A DNA stretch of 64,000 nucleotides, taken from Shewanella pealeana ATCC 700345 (GTDB lineage Bacteria > Pseudomonadota > Gammaproteobacteria > Enterobacterales > Shewanellaceae). Location of the stretch: contig NC_009901.1 in assembly GCF_000018285.1 (NCBI RefSeq), forward strand, positions 4,277,001 through 4,341,000, read 5' to 3'. Below, piece by piece: positions 26,710 to 55,346 of this stretch. Under the pieces are notes generated by a model. It was not told the origin of the DNA and ran no database searches. It saw only the letters and a program-made list of their open reading frames with translations. The position numbers were made by a program, and so were the translations under genes. Positions within the stretch are counted from its first letter, which is position 1; every line of letters begins with the position of its first letter.

Positions 26710-28074
26710 TCACCTGAGTTTATCTTCTCGCAGCGTGAATGACTCTAAACGCTGCCCAAAAGCGGCGGCGAGTGTTTCAAACCCAGGGGTTTGCGCCAAC
26801 TTTCGGTAACTAGCCTGAGCCTCTGGCCATTGCTGCTCTAGCCAGTAACTCTGGCCAATTAACAACTGTGCTTGCCCCTGCAGCTCATTACGCCGCTGAC
26901 GTGCGTGTTTGATCTCAGCTGCAGTGCCCAAAGGCAGAATTTGTTGACCAACTTTACTCCAGGCCTTGCGCGCATTATCGCCCTGTTTTAGCGCCGCATA
27001 TAGCTGCCCTTGGAGCAGGTAAAAATCGTCTATTAACCTAAGTGAGCTTTTCATACTGTCATTATCGTCATTGAGATTCGTGTCTTTGAAACTAACGTGA
27101 CCGAGGTTGCCTTGATTTAAGCGACCTCTGTCAACTGCAGTGCCATGTAAGTTATCACTATTAAAGGCTTGTAAAAAAGCTAGCCCTTGATCATATCGTC
27201 CCGATAGCCATGCATATTGTGCGCAAGCTAAATCTTGTGTATCAAACGCTTCGAAAGACAAGCTATTCGCAGTCAGAGTTAATGACGTACAAGACGCCGC
27301 AAGATTATAGGCTTTAATCTGCCCAAATAGCCCAAACCTATTTTGCAGGCTACGGCTCGCACTACTCAGCCCTTGCAACTGAGCAGAAACATCACTTGCA
27401 ACAGCAGCCTCAAGCTTATTATCTAACCCTAGCTCAGCCCGAGTTAATACTTGCCAAGCAGTAAGGTTAGCGGGCTCAAAAGTAAGCCACTGCTGCGCAC
27501 TTACTTTGCTCTGCTGCCATTGCTCAAGCGCAAGCTGACTGTAACTAATAATAGGCCACCAATGTAGTTTCACATCTGCAGAGTACAACAGATCAATTGC
27601 CGCTTGATATTGGCCTAACTGATAATGAGCATAACCTCGCATATAGCGTATTTGCGCTGCAATAGGCTCATCTAGCATCGATAATTTCAGCCGGGTTAAT
27701 GTCGCGATAGCCGCCTTATATTGCTCAAGCTGTAATTGACTATGGCCTAAATTAATCGCGATTTGGCTTTGCTGCGGATAAAGTTGATAGCCTCTCAGCC
27801 AGCAGCTTAGCGCCTTAGTATCAGCACCTGTATCACCTAGAGTCTTACATACATATTGAAATACGACTTGGTGAGGCTTTGATTGCTCAAGTAGCGGTAT
27901 CATGAGTTTAAGCGCGACATCCAATTCATTACGTTCTAATAATGCAGTCGCTTTACTTAATACACCTGACTCATATCGATTTAAATCCCGACCAACGCTA
28001 GTATTCACATCTTGCCCATGGCTGAGACTTGAGACCAGCAATAACATTAGTGCCGATAATTTGAGGTAATTCAT
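26710..28074 (-). CDS. Periplasmic TPR protein of a TonB2-type system
   Basis: Last gene of the transport operon. 454 residues with a signal peptide (MNYLKLSALMLLLVSSLSHG) and tetratricopeptide-like repeats (INLGHSQLQLEQYKAAIATL, IRYMRGYAHYQLGQYQAAID, LLQGQLYAALKQGDNARKAW). TPR proteins follow tonB in Vibrio and Shewanella TonB2 loci and are thought to scaffold the energy-transduction complex. The start lies two bases after the TonB stop. Confidence 0.8.
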   Translation of the reverse strand: MNYLKLSALMLLLVSSLSHGQDVNTSVGRDLNRYESGVLSKATALLERNELDVALKLMIPLLEQSKPHQVVFQYVCKTLGDTGADTKALSCWLRGYQLYPQQSQIAINLGHSQLQLEQYKAAIATLTRLKLSMLDEPIAAQIRYMRGYAHYQLGQYQAAIDLLYSADVKLHWWPIISYSQLALEQWQQSKVSAQQWLTFEPANLTAWQVLTRAELGLDNKLEAAVASDVSAQLQGLSSASRSLQNRFGLFGQIKAYNLAASCTSLTLTANSLSFEAFDTQDLACAQYAWLSGRYDQGLAFLQAFNSDNLHGTAVDRGRLNQGNLGHVSFKDTNLNDDNDSMKSSLRLIDDFYLLQGQLYAALKQGDNARKAWSKVGQQILPLGTAAEIKHARQRRNELQGQAQLLIGQSYWLEQQWPEAQASYRKLAQTPGFETLAAAFGQRLESFTLREDKLR

Positions 28075-28076
28075 TG

Positions 28077-28715
28077 TTAACCAACCTTAAAGTTAATCGG
28101 TACATCAACAAAGACTTTCACCGCTTCACCAGATAAAACGGCTGGTTTAAATCGCCACTTTCGTGCAGCCTCAATTGCTGACTGGTCAAACACTTGCTTA
28201 GGTTTAGCTTCTAACACTTCTGCTTGGCTAACGACACCATCAGCCTCCACTATGAGCCGTAACAGCACTCTGCCACCTTGCTTAAACTTGCGCCCAGCCA
28301 ACGGCATTTTAGGTTGAATAAAACGTAATAACTCTGGCGCTTTGTCGACATCTTTAATTCCTGCTATAACAGGTGTAATGCTTGGCAGACTTAAACTATT
28401 AACTGTCGGAACCGCCATAATAGGCACCTGCAACGGCATATCTGCAACCGTTGGCATAATCGGTATGCTAGTGGACACTGGTGTTGCGGCGTTTGCAGTT
28501 ACTGGTTTGCTTTGCACCTCTTTTGCCGTTGGTATTTTAGGTTTTTCAGGTGGCAACAGCGGCAGAGGTAGCTCCTTAGTTTGCTTGGCAAGGAACTGCC
28601 TTGGTTGATTATCATTGAGGCTGTTAGGCAAGTAATAACAGAGCAGTATCGTTACGACTATAGACAGCAAAAACCGTGCACTAATAACCAAGGCTCTATG
28701 GACGACTATGCTCAT
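28077..28715 (-). CDS. TonB-type energy transducer (TonB2-like)
   Basis: 212 residues: one N-terminal membrane anchor (about 13-30), a Pro/Lys-rich spacer (LPLPLLPPEKPKIPTAKE) and a C-terminal TonB domain (GRVLLRLIVEADGVVSQAEV, SAIEAARKWRFKPAV). It carries proton-motive energy from ExbB/ExbD to the outer-membrane receptor. The start overlaps the exbD stop. The relatively short length is typical of TonB2 proteins. Confidence 0.88.
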   Translation of the reverse strand: MSIVVHRALVISARFLLSIVVTILLCYYLPNSLNDNQPRQFLAKQTKELPLPLLPPEKPKIPTAKEVQSKPVTANAATPVSTSIPIMPTVADMPLQVPIMAVPTVNSLSLPSITPVIAGIKDVDKAPELLRFIQPKMPLAGRKFKQGGRVLLRLIVEADGVVSQAEVLEAKPKQVFDQSAIEAARKWRFKPAVLSGEAVKVFVDVPINFKVG

Positions 28716-29116
28716 CAGTGGATCTCTGATGCTACGGAGCTAAAGCTTATTCCGGCCTGCTTGGCAATATCCAGCACTTTTATCGTTACCCCTGTTGGGC
28801 AGTTGGTATCAGCTACGACTAACAACTTAGCTTTAGGTGTTTGACTGGCAATCTGCTGCAACTTGCCTGGCAGATAATAGATATCAATCTCTTTGGATTC
28901 AAAATAGACCCGCCCAGTGGTATCAAGTGTCACTACAATTGGGCTGCCATCGACACTGGTGGCCGTGCTGGCTTGAGGGCGCTTGATCTCGACAGATGAT
29001 TGCTGCACAAAGTTGGTCGACACAATAAAGAAGATCAGCAAGATAAACACCACATCAAGCATAGGCGTCATGTTGATTTCAGGATCTTTATCTTGTCTAA
29101 ATCGATCGCTAAGCAT
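28715..29116 (-). CDS. exbD: ExbD biopolymer transport protein
   Basis: 133 residues with one membrane helix (MLDVVFILLIFFIVSTNFV). The conserved proton-path Asp is in MTPMLDVVFILL. The rest is a periplasmic domain. Subunit of the ExbB-ExbD-TonB motor. Overlaps exbB by 8 bases and tonB by 1. Confidence 0.9.
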   Translation of the reverse strand: MLSDRFRQDKDPEINMTPMLDVVFILLIFFIVSTNFVQQSSVEIKRPQASTATSVDGSPIVVTLDTTGRVYFESKEIDIYYLPGKLQQIASQTPKAKLLVVADTNCPTGVTIKVLDIAKQAGISFSSVASEIH

Positions 29117-29627
29117 TAGCGCCTCCAGCTAATAAATTAGTATCGACACGGTTTAATTTTCGCTGCCAAAAAAAAGCTAATATGGCGCCAGTTAAACCGA
29201 CAAACAAACCGGTTTGTGTGGTCACCATCGCCATAGAGATCCCGGCAGAGATCACCGCAGGATCGTGAAACCCATAATTGCCCCCCGCATCAAACATGGC
29301 GATCATACCGCTCACAGTGCCAAGTAATCCTAATAACGGTGCCACCATAGCAAGTAACTTAACCCCTTGAAGATCGCCATACTGCTGAGCCTGTGCCTGT
29401 CTTAGTGCTAACGAGCGCAAACGTTGATTAAGCCAGTCACGCTCTGTTGTTAGCCCACTTTGCTTGGCTTCTAAGCTAGTCTCTTTAAATAAGGCACGAC
29501 TGACTAACCATAACATCCATAAACAGCAGATAAATAGCGGCCACATCACTATGCCACCTAGCTCAATAAAGCCTAAAACGGCATGAAAAAATTGCTCTAA
29601 TGACCCTATCAAACTACTTTGAGCCAT
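29109..29627 (-). CDS. exbB: ExbB / TolQ-type proton channel subunit
   Basis: 172 residues, three membrane helices, with the MotA/TolQ/ExbB core VAPLLGLLGTVSGMIAMFDA and VISAGISMAMVTTQTGLFVG. The ATG at 29627, with GGGGAA upstream, is preferred over a TTG 18 bases earlier. The gene begins inside the end of the TtpC-like gene. Confidence 0.88.
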   Translation of the reverse strand: MAQSSLIGSLEQFFHAVLGFIELGGIVMWPLFICCLWMLWLVSRALFKETSLEAKQSGLTTERDWLNQRLRSLALRQAQAQQYGDLQGVKLLAMVAPLLGLLGTVSGMIAMFDAGGNYGFHDPAVISAGISMAMVTTQTGLFVGLTGAILAFFWQRKLNRVDTNLLAGGANA

Positions 29628-31023
29628 GGCATTCCCCTTGCTCAAGGTTGAGCGCTAGTAACAAGGCTGATTGCTGCTCCATATTCAAACTTAAAGCTTG
29701 AGCGCGGCGCTTTAACGGGTAATGCAGCAATAACAGAGGCAGTGCCACCAGCAAGCCAGCCTGAGTGGTGATTAGCGCCTTACTGATCCCTTGAGATAGC
29801 AATTTAGGGTCGCTATTGCCGAACTCGGTTAAAGACTGAAATGTTTCAATCATCCCCGACACAGTTCCTAGTAAACCTAGCATTGGAGCCATGGCAGCAA
29901 GCAGCGCAATAAAGCCAAGACCTCGCTCAAATTGCGCCATCTGTTTCAGCATCAACTGCTTGAGCCGCTGATCCATTGCGTCAACACAGCTACCTTCAAC
30001 AATGGCATTAGCTAACACTTTCGCTGCTGGCACTCGAGACACACTCTGTAGTTGCTGCTTAATCTTTAGCAGATCCGCTTTAGCGCTATCATCTTTTTGA
30101 AGCTGGGCTAATGGACGCCAATACAGCAAGATCACCGCGCGCCAAAGGGCGATCAGTAAGCCAAGCGCTGCTAAAATAAGAATTGGCCACAACACTTCGC
30201 CACCATCTTTTACCCATTGGCCAACGCTTTGCTTTTGCGCCAAGCTTGGCAACATGCGGCCTTGACTTAAATCCATTGCCAATAGTTGAGTTTCCCCATC
30301 TATCCACGCTTTTAGCTGCAGACTAACACCGGTATCAACAGGCGTAATTGCGGTTGGCAGTTTGTCAGTAAAGGCAATGAAACTCGGTAAATCCGTATCG
30401 GTTACGGCCATTAAACCACCAAATACGAGTAGCTCTTTTGTGCTAACACTGCCATCGGCTTGGCTTATTGGTGCAGAAGTACGGGCAACTTGTGCTGTCA
30501 TCTGCATATCGTCAACGGCGTAACCGATAAGCTCATTAAGTTGCGACAGGCTTGGAAAGCTTGAGCTCGCCTTAGCGACAGCTAAACTTTGCTCTCGCTG
30601 CACTTCAATTAAGCTTGTAGAACTTTGCTGCCATTGCTGCGTTAAACTACTCAGCGCTTTTTGATAAGCCCCTTGAACCAGCTGCATATCATCAACAGCT
30701 AGTTGATAACTGCCAGTTAACTGCTGCTTTTGCTGATTAAGCGCGACTAGTTGCTCATTTAATGCTGCGAGCTGTGCGCGTTTACTGGCTAATCTTGCGC
30801 TTAACTCTTGTTGGTTAGATTTAACCTCATCGATCTCTTGTTTTAATTGATGCTCCCAAGCGCTATTTTGCTGACGGATATCAGCCACTCGGTTATCGAT
30901 TTGTGCCTTTTGCTGCAGATAATTACCAGCAGCTTTGCTCACTTGAGTGTCTGCAACAGCTTGGCCTTGGGCAAAGACTTGAATAGAAGCACTAAAGAAT
31001 AAAATAGCAATCACAGCCCTCAT
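29614..31023 (-). CDS. TtpC-like MotA/TolQ/ExbB protein
   Basis: 469 residues: signal peptide (1-18), a long periplasmic coiled coil (about 30-150, Gln-rich), a membrane helix near 275-297 and a C-terminal TolQ/ExbB domain (MAPMLGLLGTVSGMIETFQS, ISKALITTQAGLLVALPLL). This is the layout of TtpC, the fourth component of Vibrio TonB2 complexes, required for TonB2-driven siderophore uptake. It overlaps both neighbours, so it is translated with them. Confidence 0.87.
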   Translation of the reverse strand: MRAVIAILFFSASIQVFAQGQAVADTQVSKAAGNYLQQKAQIDNRVADIRQQNSAWEHQLKQEIDEVKSNQQELSARLASKRAQLAALNEQLVALNQQKQQLTGSYQLAVDDMQLVQGAYQKALSSLTQQWQQSSTSLIEVQREQSLAVAKASSSFPSLSQLNELIGYAVDDMQMTAQVARTSAPISQADGSVSTKELLVFGGLMAVTDTDLPSFIAFTDKLPTAITPVDTGVSLQLKAWIDGETQLLAMDLSQGRMLPSLAQKQSVGQWVKDGGEVLWPILILAALGLLIALWRAVILLYWRPLAQLQKDDSAKADLLKIKQQLQSVSRVPAAKVLANAIVEGSCVDAMDQRLKQLMLKQMAQFERGLGFIALLAAMAPMLGLLGTVSGMIETFQSLTEFGNSDPKLLSQGISKALITTQAGLLVALPLLLLHYPLKRRAQALSLNMEQQSALLLALNLEQGECHGSK

Positions 31024-31805
31024 TATTTAGAACCTCCTAATGGAAGCTTCACAATCTTCGCTACCTGTTTATTGGCGGTGATAGCCATGGCTAATTTAAT
31101 GTCACCTTGTTGATCGACAGGTAATGGCCGCCACTGGCGAGACTGCCCATCAAACCAACCTAAATGTTGCTCATCAGGCGTAATATAAAACCAAGATAAA
31201 CGTCCAAGTCGCAATAAATTAACCTGCACTGGCTGCTCATCGACTGCGATAACCTCTTGAGTTAACTGCAGTCCATAACCATAAGCAACCTCTATGGTCA
31301 TCACATCGAGTAAGCGCCTGAAACGCTCGGCTAATGGCAGAGCATTACTATCCATTGCGGTACGTAAAAATGCTAAGCGACGTTTACGCTCATCAAAGTC
31401 AAACGGAAGATCGCTGCTCACTTGACGCTCTAACATGGCATACCAGATCTCAAGCTGTGGCTCGAGCTCCTGCTTTAATGCAGTTATCGTGGCAATGTCT
31501 TGCTGCAACTGCGCAACCTCAGCTTGCAAGGACGCTAAATACCTTTGCTGTTTTTGCAGCTGATACTCAGTCCAGTAAAGCTCACCTAAGTCTTGTTGTT
31601 GCTGCGATAAAGACTGTGCTTTTTGCTGTTGCCATGCAGCCGCCTCTTCGCCAAGCTGCACTGCTTGTATTACAGGTTGTTGTATTTGTTCTAGCCAGCG
31701 CTCTGCTAACTGGCGATTAGAGTCACTTGCAACCGAAGTCGCACTGGCCGTTAGTGGCAACACACTAAAAGCTGCTAATAAACTGATATAAACTCGAGCT
31801 AGCAT
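31023..31805 (-). CDS. DUF3450 exported coiled-coil protein
   Basis: 260 residues from the start MLARVYISLL (GGGGG six bases upstream). A signal peptide is followed by a coiled coil (about 40-120) and a globular part with the DUF3450-typical FDFDERKRRLAFLRTAMDS and VAYGYGLQLTQEVI. DUF3450 proteins regularly precede ttpC-like genes and probably act with them in the periplasm. The start overlaps the end of the ResB-like gene by 7 bases and the stop abuts ttpC. Confidence 0.82.
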   Translation of the reverse strand: MLARVYISLLAAFSVLPLTASATSVASDSNRQLAERWLEQIQQPVIQAVQLGEEAAAWQQQKAQSLSQQQQDLGELYWTEYQLQKQQRYLASLQAEVAQLQQDIATITALKQELEPQLEIWYAMLERQVSSDLPFDFDERKRRLAFLRTAMDSNALPLAERFRRLLDVMTIEVAYGYGLQLTQEVIAVDEQPVQVNLLRLGRLSWFYITPDEQHLGWFDGQSRQWRPLPVDQQGDIKLAMAITANKQVAKIVKLPLGGSK

Positions 31806-32626
31806 TTGCGGCCCCCTTTTTTGATTGAGCGACGCCAAAACACCAGCCCTTGTAACAGTAAACTCACCAGCAATAAGCAATAACAGATAAAGAAATAGTT
31901 AATCAGTGGGTTATGTACCGCTAACATCTTAACTTGCACGCCTTTTGCCTCTTGTTGATAAGGCACACGAAAGTCCGTCACAGTGATATACAGATCGCCC
32001 CAGTTAAATGGACGCAGGAAACCTGCATGACCACTGACTGTCTGCTCGCCGTTGCTTATCTCAAAATAAGCATTATTAATGCGCGGATCGAATACCTCTA
32101 CGCTACGACGAGTGATACGGCCTGCCGGGCTAAAACCTTCTTCATCTTCGATAATTTGGCTGACATCATTGCGGTAATCCACTTTGACTAACTCGATTTG
32201 GTAACGACCACTGTTAATACGCTCACCTTGATGCAGCACTACGCTGTCGTGGCCATGAATAAACACTAAATCGACACCGTGGAAAATAAACACCAATAAG
32301 GTCAGAATATGGATCGGTAGCATCATGATCCGTGGGCTACGCCAGCGCTTATGGCGCCAAGTCGGCAGCAGATCGCGCCAAGAACACAGTGCGGTGTTTA
32401 GCCCAAGTAAAAACATCAAACCAAATAGGCCAACAAGCCAACTTGCCACAATAGGCGCATTAGCTAAACTCTGCATCCACTGCGACATTGGCAGATCGTT
32501 CAGTGAGCGCAGTACTTGCCGATAAGCATCTTGTTCACTCATGGCTACGCCAAGTGCAAACCACACAGACAACAGCAGTAGCAGCACAAAGGCTAACCGC
32601 ATCGAAAATAACCAGTTCATTTTCAT
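31799..32626 (-). CDS. ResB-like membrane protein
   Basis: 275 residues. Membrane segments at about 3-27, 54-76 and 98-120, then a periplasmic domain of about 115 residues, then one more helix near the C-terminus (LINYFFICYCLLLVSLLLQG). This is the ResB/Ccs1 topology of system II cytochrome c maturation, and the periplasmic domain has the beta-rich GERINSGRYQIELVKVDY pattern. It is shorter than classical ResB. The ATG overlaps the stop of the CcsA-like gene (ATGA). It is placed in a TonB/ABC transport operon rather than with cytochromes, so the cargo is unknown. Confidence 0.62.
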   Translation of the reverse strand: MKMNWLFSMRLAFVLLLLLSVWFALGVAMSEQDAYRQVLRSLNDLPMSQWMQSLANAPIVASWLVGLFGLMFLLGLNTALCSWRDLLPTWRHKRWRSPRIMMLPIHILTLLVFIFHGVDLVFIHGHDSVVLHQGERINSGRYQIELVKVDYRNDVSQIIEDEEGFSPAGRITRRSVEVFDPRINNAYFEISNGEQTVSGHAGFLRPFNWGDLYITVTDFRVPYQQEAKGVQVKMLAVHNPLINYFFICYCLLLVSLLLQGLVFWRRSIKKGGRKC

Positions 32627-33315
32627 GACAGGCGATACCCCAACATCAATACGCAAATAAAGCCAAGCACTGCAGCCTTGCCTAAAGCCAACGCTTTGCC
32701 ATTAGCAAACCAAGCTTTTGGTAAGTGAAACACTAAGATAAATAGCAGGTAAGTGAGGGCCGAGAAAAAGAAATGCCCACTCCAACTCCAGCTGCGTCCC
32801 CAGCCAATAAAAGCCCAATAGCTACCAGAGATTTCCCCACCAAGAAACGCGGTACCCGCTAATAAACTTAATAAATGGCTATGGTTCTCTAAACGAGGAT
32901 CACGAGCAAACGCGTGCAATAAGTAACCCACACAGCCTGCAATGGCTAAGCCCAATGCAATGGGGCGAGAAAGAAAGAACAGCTGCGCCCACAGTGAAGT
33001 AAGCATGGCGCTGTCACCTATTGGTGGCTCAAGTGTTTTGCTGTAGATAAGCAGTAATAACGCTAAGACACACACAGACCAGACATAGTTAGCTTGTAAA
33101 CTGCTACGGATAGGTAAAATGCAAACAGCTAGCAAGCTCACAATAGCAGTCACAACAAGGTAAGTTGCCACACTGCTACCCGGAAACAGTAGGCTATTAG
33201 CATTGATTAAGATAAGTGTCATAATTGATAATGCTAACAACACCATGCTTACTAAACGCGCTGCAATAAAGCCTTGTTCAAATGACTTAGCTTGCTTCAA
33301 ACTGACATCATTCAT
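32623..33315 (-). CDS. CcsA/ResC-like membrane protein with a WWD-like motif
   Basis: 230 residues, six or seven membrane helices. It contains SGSYWAFIGWGRSWSWSG at about 163-180, very like the heme-binding tryptophan-rich (WWD) motif of CcsA/CcmF/CcmC, but with Ser where Asp is usual. His134, His181 and His197 could act as ligands. It is followed by the ResB-like gene with a 4-base overlap, the order of a ResC-ResB partnership. A heme or other metal-cofactor role is inferred. Confidence 0.6.
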   Translation of the reverse strand: MNDVSLKQAKSFEQGFIAARLVSMVLLALSIMTLILINANSLLFPGSSVATYLVVTAIVSLLAVCILPIRSSLQANYVWSVCVLALLLLIYSKTLEPPIGDSAMLTSLWAQLFFLSRPIALGLAIAGCVGYLLHAFARDPRLENHSHLLSLLAGTAFLGGEISGSYWAFIGWGRSWSWSGHFFFSALTYLLFILVFHLPKAWFANGKALALGKAAVLGFICVLMLGYRLS

Positions 33316-34646
33316 TTGTTGGGTTCACCTGTTAATGCCGCATTGCCTACGCTAACAAACTGCATTAGTTTTTGCGGCAAATTAGCATCTTCAACATCAA
33401 TAATTTCAGGATTATTAAGCGACCAGTGGCGGCAAACCTGCTCGATTAAACTTGGTCGCACCACCCAGATATGTCGGCTATTCGTCACAGAAAGCAGAGG
33501 CGCTATCTGCTTGCCAAAGCCTTGTCCACCAAGCTCCATCGGCCCTATTTCATCTACAATACAGATATCGCCTTGCATAAAGTGGATGTGGTCAAGCGCC
33601 CGTTTGCCTAATGCGATCCCCTCTTCGGTAAAGGTGAATCGAGTGCCGGTTTTCTTATCGAGTACTCCTGTGCGATGACCAAACAAGCACTTCTCACCTG
33701 TGGCGATATCGACAATATCGCTACTAAAACGTCGACCATCCTGCATCACTCCTGGACATAGCATTCCTTTAAGCGCTATCTGGTGTTGCTTACACCGCGC
33801 GATAAATGCCCCTAAGGCAGTGGTTTTGCCACTACCACTTTCGCCAGTAATAATGAGCACTTTACTCATACTGAGCCCCAATATATTTTGCGGCATAAAA
33901 AACTCCTGCTCGGCGACTTGATAGCTGGCCGTTGCCAAACCATACAATCGACTAATATTTTTGCTGGTCATCACGGCGTTACGCTCGCCATAATCCAACA
34001 CTTTACCGTGCTCCAATAGCAGCACTTTATCAGCGTATAGCTGGGCTAAGTTTGGATCGTGCAATATGGCAATCACGGCGGTTTTAGATTCAACGCAGCT
34101 ACGTTTAACCTGCGAAAGGATTTGATATTTATTACGGTAATCAAGATGGTTCGTTGGCTCATCGAGCAGTAATAATTGCTCACTCTGAAATAGCGCTCTA
34201 GCCAGTAACACCAACTGACGTTCGCCACCCGACAGACGGTTATAATCTGCTTTGGCCAAGGCTCCAACATCAAGCAGTTGCATCACTCGTTTAGCGTCAT
34301 TAATATCTTGCTCAGAAGGAGACTCGAAGGTTGATAGAAAAGGGGTACGCCCCATTACCACCATTTCAAGCGCAGTAAAAGCAAAGGCAGTTTCTTGCTG
34401 CTGTGGCACCAAAGCCATCTGCTGGGCAATTTCGGCTCGGCTCATTTTCTCCAGCGGACGAGAATTAAGATGAACAGCACCTTTGCTAGGTTGATTGAGA
34501 CCACATAGACAGTTCATCAATGTGGTTTTACCTGCACCATTAGCCCCTAAAACCGCTAAAAACTCGCCTGCTGCTAACTCGAAACTAATATCTTCTAATA
34601 AGCACTTGTCACCGACAGCGTAACTAATATGGTTAACCGATAGCAT
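33312..34646 (-). CDS. FepC/BtuD-type ABC ATPase fused to a THEP1-like NTPase
   Basis: 444 residues in two parts. Residues 1 to about 240 are an iron-siderophore/B12-type ABC ATPase: Walker A GANGAGKT (34-41), signature LSGGERQ, Walker B LLLLDEPTNHLD. Residues about 260-440 resemble THEP1/NTPase_1 nucleoside triphosphatases: P-loop GESGSGKTT (268-276), GVMQDGRRFSSDIVDIATGE and Walker B CIVDEIGPME. An in-frame ATG at 33869 has GGGG six bases upstream and could start a free NTPase. Start and stop overlap both neighbours. The role of the NTPase half is unknown. Confidence 0.82.
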   Translation of the reverse strand: MLSVNHISYAVGDKCLLEDISFELAAGEFLAVLGANGAGKTTLMNCLCGLNQPSKGAVHLNSRPLEKMSRAEIAQQMALVPQQQETAFAFTALEMVVMGRTPFLSTFESPSEQDINDAKRVMQLLDVGALAKADYNRLSGGERQLVLLARALFQSEQLLLLDEPTNHLDYRNKYQILSQVKRSCVESKTAVIAILHDPNLAQLYADKVLLLEHGKVLDYGERNAVMTSKNISRLYGLATASYQVAEQEFFMPQNILGLSMSKVLIITGESGSGKTTALGAFIARCKQHQIALKGMLCPGVMQDGRRFSSDIVDIATGEKCLFGHRTGVLDKKTGTRFTFTEEGIALGKRALDHIHFMQGDICIVDEIGPMELGGQGFGKQIAPLLSVTNSRHIWVVRPSLIEQVCRHWSLNNPEIIDVEDANLPQKLMQFVSVGNAALTGEPNK

Positions 34647-35692
34647 TAGTAGGCCCCTCCCTGACGGAAACGAAACAGCAAAAAGGCAAACAGTGGTGCA
34701 CCAACCAATGAGGTCACGATACCGATTGGGATCTCCATGCTAAAGCTCGCCCGTGCCACACTGTCTGCGAACAGCAAAAATATCGCACCTACCGCAGTTG
34801 ATAAGGGAATAAGCCGCATATTGTTAGCACCAGTAAAAGTGCGCACCATGTGCGGTACAACGAGACCAATCCAAGCAACTGAGCCAACGGTTGCGACACA
34901 AGAAGCGACGATAAACGAGCTAGTCACAATTAACACCATACGCAGTCTTGCAGGTTCCACCCCAAGGCTGCGGCATTGGTGATCGCCCAAGCAAAGTACA
35001 TTGAGGCGATAACGCAGCGTATGGATAAGACCATAACCTAGAGCTACAGGCACAATCAGCTGCGCCACAGTACTCCAGCTGCTCACCGACAAAGATCCCA
35101 TCAACCAAAAAACAATAGCTGGTAGCTCACCATAAGGATCAGCTAGCGCTTTTAACATGGTAAGGCCTGCGCCAAATATCGAGCCGACAATAATGCCGGT
35201 CATAATCATCAGCAGTAAGCTGTTACTACCAAAGCGCTTAGCCATAAACATGGCAGCACATGCTGCAGTTAAACCACAAATAAATGCCAGCAATTGCACC
35301 ATAAGCCAACTGCTACCCGGTAAAATCAGCCCCATAGCCGCGCCAAACATACAGCCAGATGCCACACCTAAAATGTCGGGAGAAACCAGCGGATTACGAA
35401 AGACTCCCTGATAAACCGCGCCAGATACGGCCAGCCCGGCGCCAACAATCAGTGCTGTCAGTAAGCGAGGAAAACGGATCAACAGAATGACCCGCTCTTC
35501 CTGAGTCAAGTTATCAGGTACTTGGCCTGTAAGTATTAAACTACTCAGCACCGATGGCAGTTTTTGAATAGCGCTGAATAAATCGCTTGGGTTAATCGAG
35601 AAGCGCCCAGCACAAATACCAACTAAGCCAACCACAATGGCAATCCCGAGCCATTGCACAGGTTGTATCGCGCGTGTTTTTGCTACAAACAT
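34646..35692 (-). CDS. FecCD/BtuC-type ABC permease
   Basis: 348 residues, about ten membrane helices, with the family motifs LLIRFPRLLTALIVGAGLAV, GVFRNPLVSPDILGVASG, LGVEPARLR and GLVVPHMVR. It forms the inner-membrane channel for a chelated metal, heme or corrinoid. The start at 35692 lies inside the last codons of the binding-protein gene; the stop overlaps the ATPase start (TAATG). Confidence 0.9.
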   Translation of the reverse strand: MFVAKTRAIQPVQWLGIAIVVGLVGICAGRFSINPSDLFSAIQKLPSVLSSLILTGQVPDNLTQEERVILLIRFPRLLTALIVGAGLAVSGAVYQGVFRNPLVSPDILGVASGCMFGAAMGLILPGSSWLMVQLLAFICGLTAACAAMFMAKRFGSNSLLLMIMTGIIVGSIFGAGLTMLKALADPYGELPAIVFWLMGSLSVSSWSTVAQLIVPVALGYGLIHTLRYRLNVLCLGDHQCRSLGVEPARLRMVLIVTSSFIVASCVATVGSVAWIGLVVPHMVRTFTGANNMRLIPLSTAVGAIFLLFADSVARASFSMEIPIGIVTSLVGAPLFAFLLFRFRQGGAY

Positions 35693-36681
35693 TGGCTCAT
35701 CTCTTGTAGCGGTGAAAGGCAAGCGTCACCAAAGGCCACTTGATAGTAATGGGCAATTTCGGCATTTAGATCGATGTTTATAAATCTTTCAGGGTAAGCA
35801 TGCGCGGCAATATATAAAGCACCCGCCATCGCCATCGGTGACGGCATATCCCAAAAGCTACCTTTAGGTATTTTGATGTGCGGCAACTGAGCGAGTTGGG
35901 TCATCAGTGACTTGTTCAGTTGCTCATCCACTTTAGTTGAATCATTAGACTCACGTACCAGCACCTGTGGCTGCCATAACAGGAGTTGCTCAGCATTCAC
36001 TTTTGGATAGAAACCCGGTACGCCAGTGGCAACGTTTTCTACTCCAGCAACTGCCATCAGCTGATGCTGAAACATCTGTTCACTCGCTGTGCGGTATAGA
36101 TCTGAGCTATTAGCATAATATGCACGTAGGCGTTGATCGTCACTAAGCCCTTTCAATCCTGTTTGAATAATTTCGGCTAAACGTTGGTTTTCAGCTGCTA
36201 TCTTAGCCGCCTTGTCTTCCGTACCCGTGGCTTTCGCTAATAGCGACAGCACAACTTCACTATCTTTAAAACTTTCAGGTTGGATAACCAAGCTAGCAAT
36301 GCCTAAAGAAGTCAGGCGATCCGCCAATCTATAACCGTCTTTCTTACCAAAGACTAAAACCAGATCCGGCTTCAATGCGACGATGGTTTCTAAACTCGTT
36401 CCAGCCGAACGACTGCCGATCACCACTGGATCGCGCTCAGCTAAAATACGGTTTATAAATGGAGAGTGCTTGGTGCTACCACCGATACCAACAAGTTGAT
36501 CTGCAAGCCCAAGGCTTAAAGAAAATAGGTTAGCAGGTGTAAACGTCGTCACAATACGTGAGGCAGGCTTTTGCAGAACCACCTCACGGCCTTGTTGATC
36601 GACCAAGTGTATCGGCGCTGCCGATACACTTGAAAGACCACAAAGGAGAATGACAACAGCACTAAATAGTCTGTTTAGCAT
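35683..36681 (-). CDS. Periplasmic binding protein (TroA/BtuF-like)
   Basis: 332 residues with a signal peptide ending SVSA. A class III binding protein of the siderophore/heme/B12 type: HLVDQQGREVVLQKPASRIV, VALKPDLVLVFG and the long linking helix around 160-180. It delivers the ligand to the FecCD-like permease. The many Tyr/Ser near 190-205 may line the site, but the ligand cannot be read from sequence. The start lies nine bases after the receptor stop. Confidence 0.85.
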   Translation of the reverse strand: MLNRLFSAVVILLCGLSSVSAAPIHLVDQQGREVVLQKPASRIVTTFTPANLFSLSLGLADQLVGIGGSTKHSPFINRILAERDPVVIGSRSAGTSLETIVALKPDLVLVFGKKDGYRLADRLTSLGIASLVIQPESFKDSEVVLSLLAKATGTEDKAAKIAAENQRLAEIIQTGLKGLSDDQRLRAYYANSSDLYRTASEQMFQHQLMAVAGVENVATGVPGFYPKVNAEQLLLWQPQVLVRESNDSTKVDEQLNKSLMTQLAQLPHIKIPKGSFWDMPSPMAMAGALYIAAHAYPERFINIDLNAEIAHYYQVAFGDACLSPLQEMSQCL

Positions 36682-36690
36682 TCTGACTCC

Positions 36691-38727
36691 TTAGAAGCGG
36701 TACTTTACGCCCACTTCATAAGAGCGGCCTTCGTTTGGCTGACCGTATCCTTCGTAGTGCGACTCATCGAGTAGGTTGTTTAGATTAACGTAAGCAGAAA
36801 GCTGCGGTGTAATCGATTTCTTAATACCCATATCAATAGTTAACGTATCTGACTCCCACTCATCTGAACGCTCATCAATCATGATGTCAGTGCGGTAGCG
36901 AACGCGTAAGTTACTATCAATATCTAACCAAGGCTGATACCAGTTAACGATCGCAGTAACAGAGTCTTTTGGAATGTCACGGAAGTAATCCGAATCACGG
37001 TCAACACTCTTGTTACGTGCATGGGTATAAGTGTAATCCAGAGATAAGCTGATATTTTCTGTTAGCTGACTTAAGGTAGTGATCTCGATACCGTAAAACT
37101 CTGACTTACCAATGTTTTGGTAGATTTCAAGGTCCCAACCTGGATCCGTTGGATCAGGCATATAAGTAGAGACAATCTTATCGCTCACATCATGGTAGAA
37201 CAGGCCGATATCGATACTGTTTAATAATTTATGGCTAAAATCATTCTTCCAGCCTAAGGTATAGCTAGTATTACGCTCAGGTTTAATATCGTGGCGCGCA
37301 CCAGTGTCGTCATACATCTCAGTAAAAGTCGCAAAGCGAGTCTTTTGAGCAATAGAGCCATAAACTAAACCTGCGTTATCGAAGGTGTAGCTCATACCTA
37401 ACATTGGATCGAGTGTATCCGAGCCATCTTCACCCGGTGCCGCATCGTTGCCACGGTCTTCAACCACCGTTTGTTTATGCCATGCAACACCTGCAACCAC
37501 ATTTAAAGCACCAAATGTCATGGTATCTTCAGCGGCCAAGCTAATGGTATCAAGCTGAGAACGCTCATAAGCGTGAGAGCGGTCAGGATCCACATAGGCA
37601 ACATTCTTCTTCTTATGAACGTCATTCTTAAAGTTCACAGAAAGACTTAAACTGTTCCAATCGGCTAGCGCCATATCGGTAAACAGAGCGCCACCAGCGG
37701 TATAATCGCTAAAGCTACTGGTCGCAAGTTTTACCTCTTTCTCAGGATTGCTATAGGAGTCATAGCTATCGTTATGCATGTGGTAGTAACCTAAAGCACG
37801 CACTGTTAGCCAATCATTAACGCGGTGTAAACCGCTTAAATCCATACCGGTATCTTTGTATTCAGAGATATCAGCAAAACTACTAAAGTCACTAAACACC
37901 TTGTTATTACGGGTGTTGTATGGCAATTCGCGATCTGAATCTAAACTAAAAACACTAGCAAATAGTTCGGTACTTTCGTTGGCGTAACCACCACGGACCC
38001 AGATGTTAGTCGACTCGTAGGCTGAGTTTTCGCGCTTACCGCCATCTTCAACAACCATCTGCTTTGGCAAGTCGCCATATTTATCTCTAATGTCAGATAA
38101 AACAGGCTCGAAATCATTAGACATGCGCATCGCATCACGACCACGATGATCAACAGTTGCGAATAAGCTAAAGCCATTTTTGCCTAGGCTAAGTGAAGCT
38201 GACTCATGATTCTGGCCCATCTGCCCGAATGAAGCCTGAACATCACCACTAACACCATCTTGACCTTTCTTGGTGATAATATTGACGACGCCACCCATGC
38301 CATTAGGTCCATAAAGTACAGATGAAGCACCTTTAACAACCTCGATCTTGGCAATAATGCTCGCTGGAATTTGATTAAGATCTAGCTGACCGTAGTTGGT
38401 TTCATAGTAAGGCACACCATCAAGTAAAATAAGCACTTTATCTTGCTCAAACCCTTGAATGGTCAGAAATTTCTCACCTTTACTCGATTGAGCAACATGT
38501 ACTCCAGGGACATAGTCGAGTGCATCAGCCGCAGTCTTTGCACCAATTAACTCAATTTGCTCTGCGGTCATAGTGTTGTTGATAGCAATATCTTTAACAC
38601 CTGTTTGGTCTGACACGACGATTTCACCAAGTGAAAAAACATCGTTTGCTTCATTAGCCATTGCAGCAGGGCACGACAATAAACTGCTGATGATAACTGC
38701 TATTTTTGTATTTCTTGTTCTGATCAC
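36691..38727 (-). CDS. TonB-dependent outer-membrane receptor
   Basis: 678 residues. Signal peptide ending near AMA, then a TonB box (EIVVS, about 35-39), a plug domain (LDYVPGVHVAQSS, IQGFEQDKVLILLDGVPYYE, IEVVKGASSVLYGPNGMGGV) and a 22-strand-type barrel ending in the outer-membrane signature YEVGVKYRF. It takes a bound substrate across the outer membrane using the TonB complex encoded at the end of the same operon. It is the first gene, so the operon promoter must lie in 38728-39128. No Fur box or B12 riboswitch is evident there. Confidence 0.92.
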   Translation of the reverse strand: MIRTRNTKIAVIISSLLSCPAAMANEANDVFSLGEIVVSDQTGVKDIAINNTMTAEQIELIGAKTAADALDYVPGVHVAQSSKGEKFLTIQGFEQDKVLILLDGVPYYETNYGQLDLNQIPASIIAKIEVVKGASSVLYGPNGMGGVVNIITKKGQDGVSGDVQASFGQMGQNHESASLSLGKNGFSLFATVDHRGRDAMRMSNDFEPVLSDIRDKYGDLPKQMVVEDGGKRENSAYESTNIWVRGGYANESTELFASVFSLDSDRELPYNTRNNKVFSDFSSFADISEYKDTGMDLSGLHRVNDWLTVRALGYYHMHNDSYDSYSNPEKEVKLATSSFSDYTAGGALFTDMALADWNSLSLSVNFKNDVHKKKNVAYVDPDRSHAYERSQLDTISLAAEDTMTFGALNVVAGVAWHKQTVVEDRGNDAAPGEDGSDTLDPMLGMSYTFDNAGLVYGSIAQKTRFATFTEMYDDTGARHDIKPERNTSYTLGWKNDFSHKLLNSIDIGLFYHDVSDKIVSTYMPDPTDPGWDLEIYQNIGKSEFYGIEITTLSQLTENISLSLDYTYTHARNKSVDRDSDYFRDIPKDSVTAIVNWYQPWLDIDSNLRVRYRTDIMIDERSDEWESDTLTIDMGIKKSITPQLSAYVNLNNLLDESHYEGYGQPNEGRSYEVGVKYRF

Positions 38728-39070
38728 CTAAGACTCCGATCTGCTCGTTATAGTGACTAAGCAAACTTCCATACGAAAGTGTTAGCTAGTCATAAATTCG
38801 CGCGTATCTTAGTCTTAATCTGCTGTTACGAGTTTTTACAACACTAAACTCTAGACAGGTGTCACCCAATAAAAAACCAATTACGACGTAACAACCTATT
38901 GTTACAGCAACAAAAGGACAAATAGTCACAACCAGACAAGTTGACCAACCTAATATGTCTACAGTTAAACCTGTAACTCCTTAATAAATATAACCTAAAT
39001 TAAGGAGGGCTAAGTTATCTCCATATTTAACGAACCATGCATTTATTTAAGGTTAGACCTAATAATTTTC
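38728..39070 (-). promoter_or_regulatory. Upstream regulatory region of the receptor/ABC/TonB operon
   Basis: About 340 gene-free bases before the sspB terminator. It holds two inverted repeats: GTAACAA-CCTA-TTGTTAC (38888-38905, perfect 7-bp arms) and CTCCTTAAT / ATTAAGGAG (38977-38985 and 38999-39007). Either could be an operator. I see no good Fur box and no cobalamin or TPP riboswitch core. Confidence 0.45.
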
Positions 39071-39073
39071 CAT

Positions 39074-39103
39074 AAAAAAAGCCAGTCCTAAGACTGGCTT
39101 TTT
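39074..39103. terminator. Terminator of sspB
   Basis: GCCAGTC (39081-39087) / GACTGGC (39092-39098) with loop CTAA, A-run before and T-run after. It works best for the minus-strand sspAB genes. Confidence 0.9.
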
Positions 39104-54487: not shown

Positions 54488-54563
54488 TGGAGCGACATAT
54501 CGGGTTCGAACCGATGACCTATACCTTGGCAAGGTATCGCTCTACCAACTGAGCTAATGTCGC
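54488..54563 (-). tRNA. tRNA-Gly (anticodon GCC)
   Basis: 76 nt including CCA. Acceptor GCGACAT / ATGTCGC, D arm AGCTCAGTTGGTAGAGC, anticodon arm ATACC-TTGCCAA-GGTAT and T arm with GGTTCGAACC are all intact. Most promoter-distal intact copy of the array. Confidence 0.95.
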
Positions 54564-54580
54564 GTAATCTTTACTTTGAT

Positions 54581-54680
54581 TGAAACGACATATCGGCTTC
54601 GAAACAAACAACCGATGACTTATACCTTGGTAAGGTATCGCCCTTTTGCTCTCATAAAGAGTCAACTGAGCTAATGTCGC
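54581..54680 (-). pseudogene. Aberrant tRNA-Gly-like copy, 100 nt, anticodon ACC
   Basis: Anticodon arm ATACC-TTACCAA-GGTAT (anticodon ACC) is sound. The D-loop has an insert with a mini-hairpin CTC-TTTAT-GAG, and the T-loop is expanded (TTGTTTGTTTCGAA). The 3' end reads TTTCA rather than CTCCA, so the CCA is lost. Probably a pseudogene. Confidence 0.75.
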
Positions 54681-54693
54681 CTAATCTTTAAAT

Positions 54694-54769
54694 TGGAGCG
54701 ACATATCGGGTTCGAACCGATGACCTATACCTTGGCAAGGTATCGCTCTACCAACTGAGCTAATGTCGC
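54694..54769 (-). tRNA. tRNA-Gly (anticodon GCC)
   Basis: 76 nt with encoded CCA, same sequence as the other intact copies. It lies between the two 100-nt aberrant copies, next to the promoter-distal one. Confidence 0.95.
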
Positions 54770-54816
54770 GTAAATCTTTTTACTTACCGGACTTGGTGTT
54801 CCCATAAGCTTTAAAT

Positions 54817-54892
54817 TGGAGCGACATATCGGGTTCGAACCGATGACCTATACCTTGGCAAGGTATCGCTCTACCAACTGAGCTAATGTCGC
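54817..54892 (-). tRNA. tRNA-Gly (anticodon GCC)
   Basis: 76 nt with encoded CCA, all arms intact. It is flanked by a spacer containing ACTTGGTGTTCCCATAAGC, which recurs at 54790, 54914 and, with changes, 55240. Confidence 0.95.
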
Positions 54893-54939
54893 GTAAATCT
54901 TTTTACTTATCGGACTTGGTGTTCCCATAAGCTTTAAAT

Positions 54940-55039
54940 TGGAGCGACATATCGGGTTCGAAACAAATAACCGATGACTGATACCTTGGTAAGGTATCGC
55001 CCCTTTGTTCTCATAAAGAGTCAACTGAGCTAATGTCGC
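54940..55039 (-). pseudogene. Aberrant tRNA-Gly-like copy, 100 nt, anticodon ACC, ends intact
   Basis: Same D-loop and T-loop expansions as the copy at 54581-54680, and also anticodon ACC. Here the acceptor stem (GCGACAT / ATGTCGC) and CCA are intact, and the D stem can still pair GCTC with GGGC. Likely non-functional, but the best-preserved of the aberrant units. Confidence 0.75.
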
Positions 55040-55054
55040 ACAATCTTTAAAATT

Positions 55055-55130
55055 TGGAGCGACATATCGGGTTCGAACCGATGACCTATACCTTGGCAAG
55101 GTATCGCTCTACCAACTGAGCTAATGTCGC
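55055..55130 (-). tRNA. tRNA-Gly (anticodon GCC)
   Basis: 76 nt with encoded CCA, intact cloverleaf. Separated by only 16 bases from the next copy upstream. Confidence 0.95.
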
Positions 55131-55146
55131 ATAAATCTTTTTAAAT

Positions 55147-55222
55147 TGGAGCGACATATCGGGTTCGAACCGATGACCTATACCTTGGCAAGGTATCGCT
55201 CTACCAACTGAGCTAATGTCGC
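55147..55222 (-). tRNA. tRNA-Gly (anticodon GCC)
   Basis: 76 nt with encoded CCA, intact cloverleaf; second copy from the promoter. Confidence 0.95.
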
Positions 55223-55270
55223 GTAAATCTTTTTAACTTACCGGAATTGGTGTTCCCATAAGTTTTAATT

Positions 55271-55346
55271 TGGAGCGACATATCGGGTTCGAACCGATGA
55301 CCTATACCTTGGCAAGGTATCGCTCTACCAACTGAGCTAATGTCGC
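55271..55346 (-). tRNA. tRNA-Gly (anticodon GCC), promoter-proximal
   Basis: 76 nt with encoded CCA, intact cloverleaf. First unit of the array, about 55 bases downstream of the strong promoter. Confidence 0.95.

Follow-up and report, generated by a model that had tools for sequence, protein, structure and literature searches.

The system described here is a twelve-gene operon of Shewanella pealeana ATCC 700345, at positions 26710-38727 (minus strand) of the 64,000-nucleotide stretch that was analyzed as a whole (NC_009901.1, positions 4,277,001 to 4,341,000; hereafter the window), and its closest described relatives are of several kinds. (i) MolABC (presumably Haemophilus HI_1470-1472) and BtuFCD are FecCD-type ATP-binding cassette (ABC) importers. 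(ii) CcsBA (structure 7s9y) is a cytochrome c synthase. (iii) The TonB2 system of Vibrio vulnificus, which serves siderophore uptake, is encoded by a TtpB-TtpC-ExbB-ExbD-TonB-TtpD gene set, according to the available part of its description (PMC6957404).

The operon shares something with each of these. A TonB-dependent receptor comes first, followed by a FecCD-type ABC importer, then by a CcsA-like/ResB-like pair and last by a TtpB-TtpC-ExbB-ExbD-TonB-TtpD motor. Like MolABC and BtuFCD, it has a FecCD-type importer with a related binding protein; unlike them, it fuses the ATPase to an NTPase_1 domain and brings its own TonB motor. That motor is the Vibrio set of DUF3450, TtpC, ExbB, ExbD, TonB and TPR proteins as far as the latter is described, but here it shares an operon with a receptor, an ABC importer and the pair. 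The components are of known kinds, while the combination and the regulon are new.

We consider it fairly probable that the operon encodes a TonB-powered importer carrying a tungsten compound, or less likely a molybdenum compound, from the outside to the cytoplasm. Import of one of these metals is favored because the sites upstream of the operon match the type found at TupA-like and formate dehydrogenase genes, and this sequence evidence places the operon in a putative tungstate/formate-dehydrogenase regulon. Dissolved tungsten in seawater is about a thousandfold scarcer than molybdenum, so the supply of tungsten to the tungsten enzymes of marine bacteria is an open question. If the reading is correct, TonB-driven uptake of a group 6 metal, powered by a dedicated motor and co-regulated with the tup-like and formate dehydrogenase genes, would provide part of the answer, and a TonB receptor would gain a testable substrate. 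A tentative extension, which we hold to be well short of likely, is that the TonB-driven machine carries tungsten as an organic complex (a tungstophore) from outside the cell to the cytoplasm, and that this complex is reduced or dismantled at the inner membrane by a cytochrome c synthase pair put to a new use. Among the titles listed in our literature search, none describes the operon or a TonB-dependent tungsten system, and the available parts of PMC10434189 and PMC6299221 do not concern the operon.

Operator-like sites and the candidate regulon

A palindrome, GGACA-N3-TGTCC, lies in the formate dehydrogenase (fdhD/DUF3305) promoter gap, with a perfect core in 14 of 16 loci, S. pealeana included; four of the 16 were found through the site itself, and 10 of the remaining 12 have the perfect core. 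Sites of the form GACA-N3-TGTC occur about 186-249 bp before the operon's receptor start, with at most one mismatch in all 16 regions first tested (chance expectation 0.05-0.16 per region), and when more mismatches are allowed, 12 of the 16 have paired sites 18 bp apart. In S. pealeana, site 1 (GTGACTATTTGTCCT; 38915..38929, minus strand) scores 10.8 bits with a matrix from formate dehydrogenase promoters, site 2, 18 bp upstream of it (38933..38947, minus strand), scores 5.0 bits, and a degenerate third site (AGACATATTAGGT; 38948..38960, minus strand) was read by eye.

A matrix was built from the 14 formate dehydrogenase sites and applied to the 300 bp upstream of the operon. All of the 20 genomes reach a score of 8 there and 19 reach 10, against about 3% of 4,000 random 300-bp windows, whose source loci included those of the operon. 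The threshold of 8 is likewise reached upstream of the TupA-like gene at each of 30 loci, these being the 30 best matches of 135 genomes. A matrix restricted to the 10 sites not found via the pattern gives the same counts at that threshold (20/20 and 30/30), with 6 of 963 control tiles (L005-L019, operon promoter excluded) reaching it. All 20 genomes carry, upstream of the operon, sites of the operator type seen at the fdh and tupA-like promoters. The preliminary description of this DNA had found no evident substrate; the shared operator changes that, pointing to tungsten or molybdenum. An exact GGACA-N3-TGTCC search of six carrier genomes returned 26 sites in five genomes: three operon sites and 23 others, of which 14 were examined. 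Eight of the 14 fit the regulon: the fdh promoter gap accounts for four, an operon for a receptor plus energy-coupling factor (ECF) importer is preceded by three, and a TupA-like gene by one. The tandem, 18-bp-spaced pattern was rejected as a genome-wide motif, with one exact match in the S. pealeana genome and, at up to one mismatch, 35 matches against 55 for the reversed control. Separately, a second TupA-like protein in genome G006 (L105:5428-6471) has a perfect site about 200 bp before it.

The gene next to fdhD encodes a candidate regulator, about 301 aa long, that combines an HTH_17 with a PBP_like domain; the top match of its PBP_like part, below cut-off, is the end of a molybdopterin biosynthesis protein. 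It is present in 116 of 152 family genomes, including all 20 operon carriers. At four loci (L146, L148, L149 and L150) its neighbors are a regulator of the sigma-54 type, TupA-like and TupB-like proteins, mobA, a mobB-moeA fusion and an ABC ATPase, the last detected in L150 only as a match; the L146 and L150 blocks contain moaA as well. MobA and MobB-MoeA (L148) and MoaA (L150) score above their NCBIfam cut-offs. In L148 and L150, though in neither L146 nor L149, the stretch separating the TupA-like gene from the sigma-54 regulator contains a perfect core. The tup-like system resembles the operon in operator type and regulator linkage but belongs to a different ABC class, with no receptor or TonB motor in the blocks examined. 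SO4718 of S. oneidensis is called a sigma-54 regulator for tungstate (molybdate) transport in the available part of PMC2667191, and ModE is present in some Shewanella according to PMC3223726, whose available part held no mention found of formate dehydrogenase, tungst, fdh or TonB.

These neighbors bear on which metal is meant. That the regulon is as described but serves the import of molybdenum, as molybdate or in chelated form, is unlikely, although the molybdenum-cofactor genes share the regulator's gene block, formate dehydrogenases may take either metal, and the operon's binding protein matches HI_1472, which we take to be MolA, binding molybdate/tungstate. The site is upstream of all 30 TupA-like genes and, at a score of at least 8, upstream of modA in none of the four modA loci examined (L168 has two matches downstream); besides, molybdate is abundant in seawater.

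A second regulator type (80-97% to the L099 protein) occurs with a sigma-54 activator near the receptor plus ECF operon at nine loci (L099, L100 and L152-L158), two of them found through the site, and it adjoins the twelve-gene operon itself in G090 (L151). A perfect site is present at each of the nine loci and at the G090 operon. The receptor plus ECF (TBDR2 + ECF) importer parallels the twelve-gene operon in placing an outer-membrane receptor and an inner-membrane importer behind the same site type and regulator, but it is ECF-type rather than FecCD-type, and neither a motor nor a CcsA/ResB pair was seen in those stretches. L152:12879-18349 and L153-L158 encode the TonB receptor, a double ECF ATPase and a T component; the stretches that reach far enough also encode a possible S component (a membrane protein of about 181 aa) and a protein with a weak resemblance to methanogenesis marker 11/TiaS. 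As ECF systems often carry vitamins, the sharing of site and regulator with this second importer would also suit import of an organic cofactor, or of another nutrient required alongside formate dehydrogenase, in place of a metal species. We regard this as quite improbable, given the ties of regulator and site to tup-like and molybdenum-cofactor genes.

Several observations weigh against tungsten or molybdenum import. The operon site of S. pealeana is degenerate (10.8, vs 22.7 at its own fdh and 14.1 at its own tupA-like gene), and the window has other matches of 11.1 (39439, in sspB, recurring in relatives) and 10.7 (25099, in a peptidase gene). G007 and G011 lack the site in the fdh gap. Among the 14 non-operon sites examined, two are inside a gene of the fdh block and four have no evident link. 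Of the six genomes searched, three have clearly more sites than matches to the reversed pattern (8, 9 and 4 vs 1, 2 and 1), one has slightly more and two show no excess. The regulator is also found in 96 of the 132 family genomes that lack the operon, and its G090 match (L151:9828-10730) contains one stop codon. The tup-like proteins of L148 fall below the NCBIfam cut-offs of the names given to them, with TupA ranked best (207 of 400 bits), TupB second (172 of 320) and TupC fourth (121 of 400). A TupA-like protein is present in 135 of 152 genomes and ModA in 12 of 12 checked, raising the matter of why another importer is kept alongside them; one answer would be that it takes up the metal when chelated or highly diluted. 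Finally, receptor and binding protein reach no cut-off among the NCBIfam families listed, and give no direct substrate evidence.

Importer and motor

In the proposed tungsten mechanism, the HTH_17 + PBP_like protein would bind the sites and sense tungstate or molybdate. The receptor would take up a tungsten species, perhaps a chelate, driven by the operon's own motor; the binding protein would pass it to the FecCD permease, powered by the ABC-NTPase_1 fusion, whose NTPase domain may couple import to use.

The TonB-dependent receptor (36691..38727; all operon genes are on the minus strand) matches PF00593 at 111.5 bits and PF07715 at 89 bits. The FecCD-type importer domain set is complete, with a periplasmic binding protein of the FecB/BtuF class (35683..36681; PF01497, 50.2 bits), a permease (34646..35722; PF01032, 259.5 bits) and the ATPase fusion (33312..34646; PF00005, 124.9 bits, residues 17-166; PF03266, 85.1 bits, residues 264-406). 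Among PDB sequences the binding protein scores 102.9 bits with 4hn9, 56.3 with HI_1472 and about 48 with BtuF.

The preliminary description named siderophores, heme and corrinoids as cargo of FecCD-type importers, a reading for which we found no regulatory support. Several resemblances speak for it: the solved receptors nearest by sequence are Cir and BtuB, the receptor's top match among the NCBIfam families listed is a heme receptor family, under cut-off (none is reached among the 25 families listed of 33), and the ATPase and permease are like those of heme and corrinoid systems, again under cut-off. The equivalog cut-offs of BtuC, BtuD and BtuF are reached by none of the operon proteins. Iron control was rejected, as Fur-box-like sites in 20 upstream regions are not above shuffles (the best case, G090, has 13 of 19 bases and the lowest p, 0.14), and no Rfam family, the cobalamin riboswitch included, reaches its gathering score near the operon. 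With the operator held in common with TupA-like and fdh genes as well, such an importer is very improbable, and we rank it last, after molybdenum and then an organic cofactor. A sigma-54 promoter upstream of the operon was likewise rejected, with nothing above shuffles, despite the sigma-54 activator near the regulator in some genomes.

The fusion's NTPase_1 part gives the only PF03266 match in the S. pealeana genome. In 398 sampled phylum genomes, 29 matches are above cut-off, led by the S. pealeana protein (82.9 bits), G007 (64.0) and the next at 33.4, and most of the others span just the domain start. Among 27 proteins retrieved with this part, one ABC-NTPase_1 protein (P0057) is from outside Shewanella and Ferrimonas. 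In other bacteria, NTPase_1 is joined to long membrane parts that look ECF-like by eye (P0053, named as Bacteroidales, P0055 and P0056); a wider association of NTPase_1 with importers is possible.

All six genes of a TtpB/TtpC-type TonB system are present together: TtpB-like DUF3450 (31023..31880; PF11932, 176.8 bits), TtpC-like, with a MotA/TolQ/ExbB domain after a long N-terminal part (29614..31023; PF01618, 97.6 bits, residues 339-449), ExbB (29109..29645; PF01618, 64.7 bits), ExbD (28715..29116; PF02472, 103.6 bits), TonB (28077..28715; PF03544, 60.8 bits) and a TtpD-like TPR protein (26710..28074; PF13432, 33.6 bits). ExbD identity is 91-99% across 13 Shewanella loci of the 15 loci with the full operon. 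Since one further DUF3450 gene lies elsewhere in the genome, the operon motor is probably an extra copy. The early view of a single system with its own TonB motor is backed both by the conservation of all twelve genes and by the V. vulnificus gene set.

The CcsA-like/ResB-like pair

The CcsA-like (32623..33315) and ResB/CcsB-like (31799..32656, likely start ATG at 32626) membrane proteins have weak Pfam scores, 12.6 bits (cut-off 29.9) and 6.8 bits (cut-off 24.6). The CcsA-like label is backed by profile comparison (hhalign), while that of the ResB-like protein to CcsB was not significant. Aligned to CcsBA (7s9y) with VIA-align, the predicted models match both the CcsA and the CcsB fold. In a search of solved structures, the CcsA-like profile matched none and the ResB-like profile one, at E 0.7.

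The pair shares with CcsBA both fold halves, the aromatic part of the WWD loop and one membrane His. This last is TM-His1 (H858 in 7s9y), kept as CcsA-like His197, which is invariant in 21 sequences and aligned with the CcsA His. The pair differs in three ligands or loop residues and in sitting in an import operon. At P-His1 (H761) the 21 CcsA-like sequences have an invariant Phe113, a position placed by eye via the W-x-x-x-H pattern of CcsA, as the hhalign alignment stops short of that stretch. No conserved His corresponding to P-His2 (H897) lies beyond His197 in the alignment, and the model's final residue aligns at or before 7s9y residue 891. The WWD Asp is replaced by Ser or Thr at position 179 (Ser179 here), with an added invariant His181 two residues on. 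In the ResB-like protein, His106 is invariant in 13 sequences and lies within a predicted helix (103-123), without residue-level alignment to H83 (TM-His2).

This ligand pattern argues against cytochrome c synthesis, and because the CcsBA fold is kept but the heme-attachment ligands are missing, a redox role is suggested. With the membrane heme ligand kept and the attachment site lost, the pair could be a b-heme device, supplied by quinol, whose task in the periplasm is to reduce or dismantle the complex being imported; the CcsBA fold would then gain a job besides making cytochrome c. The view of the preliminary description, that the pair handles the substrate or its metal, is a possible one. 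Counting against the redox reading, neither model had a Foldseek match at E <= 0.001 when that program was used alone, the quality of the ResB-like model is moderate (pTM 0.54), and the redox role, which the pair may have, is the least certain step of the mechanism. Alternatively, the pair might not be a reductase but serve as a heme channel or an assembly factor, which would be compatible with any of the substrates considered. CcsBA moves heme from a membrane site to a periplasmic site (available part of PMC10663686), but in the pair the periplasmic receiving site looks lost, with Phe at the P-His1 position, the WWD Asp replaced and P-His2 missing; we hold this alternative to be possible but rather doubtful.

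Distribution and genomic setting

A scan of genome contigs found 15 Shewanella and Ferrimonas loci with a CcsA-like relative, and all twelve genes occur in the same order in 15 of 15, so the unit is not a chance arrangement. The proposed neighborhood check, on receptor, CcsA-like, ResB-like, DUF3450 and TtpC genes together, comes out in favor of one conserved combination. Identities are 28-64% in two Ferrimonas, and in close Shewanella many of the genes exceed 90%; the L016 matches for receptor, ATPase and TonB are each broken into pieces. The full order recurs in G060 (L161), with the receptor truncated by the end of the stretch, and in G090, G007 and G011 the operon was read only in part. 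The CcsA-like marker is present in 20 of the 152 family genomes. Among 369 sampled class genomes, only S. pealeana has a CcsA-like match at E <= 0.001, and a receptor search at 1e-60 found its own copy only, a threshold too strict to tell. With the receptor as query, 2853 plasmid records held no match of at least 60% identity (rows listed, 23-27%).

Seven of the 15 loci have the operon flanked by sspB on one side and pabA on the other, and neither gene was found nearby in L014-L019. By eye, transposase-like genes occur on both flanks in L008 and L014, and L008 also has a pabA fragment; these flanks would fit transfer or rearrangement.

The S. pealeana genome is a single contig of 5,174,581 bases. 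In the window, twelve minus-strand open reading frames are packed between sspB and a GATase (trpG/pabA-type) gene. Nine of the 11 junctions are overlaps, several of which shrink with later start codons, and the other two are gaps of 9 and 2 bases, confirming the twelve-gene layout with overlaps or gaps of at most about 9 bases that had first been described. A terminator-like hairpin with a T-run, seen by eye 3' of sspB (39074..39103, minus strand) and absent from the list of a scan of the window, sets the operon apart from sspAB. Elsewhere in the window, six consecutive tRNA genes (54491-55346, minus strand) have the same Rfam score of 71.5 bits each.

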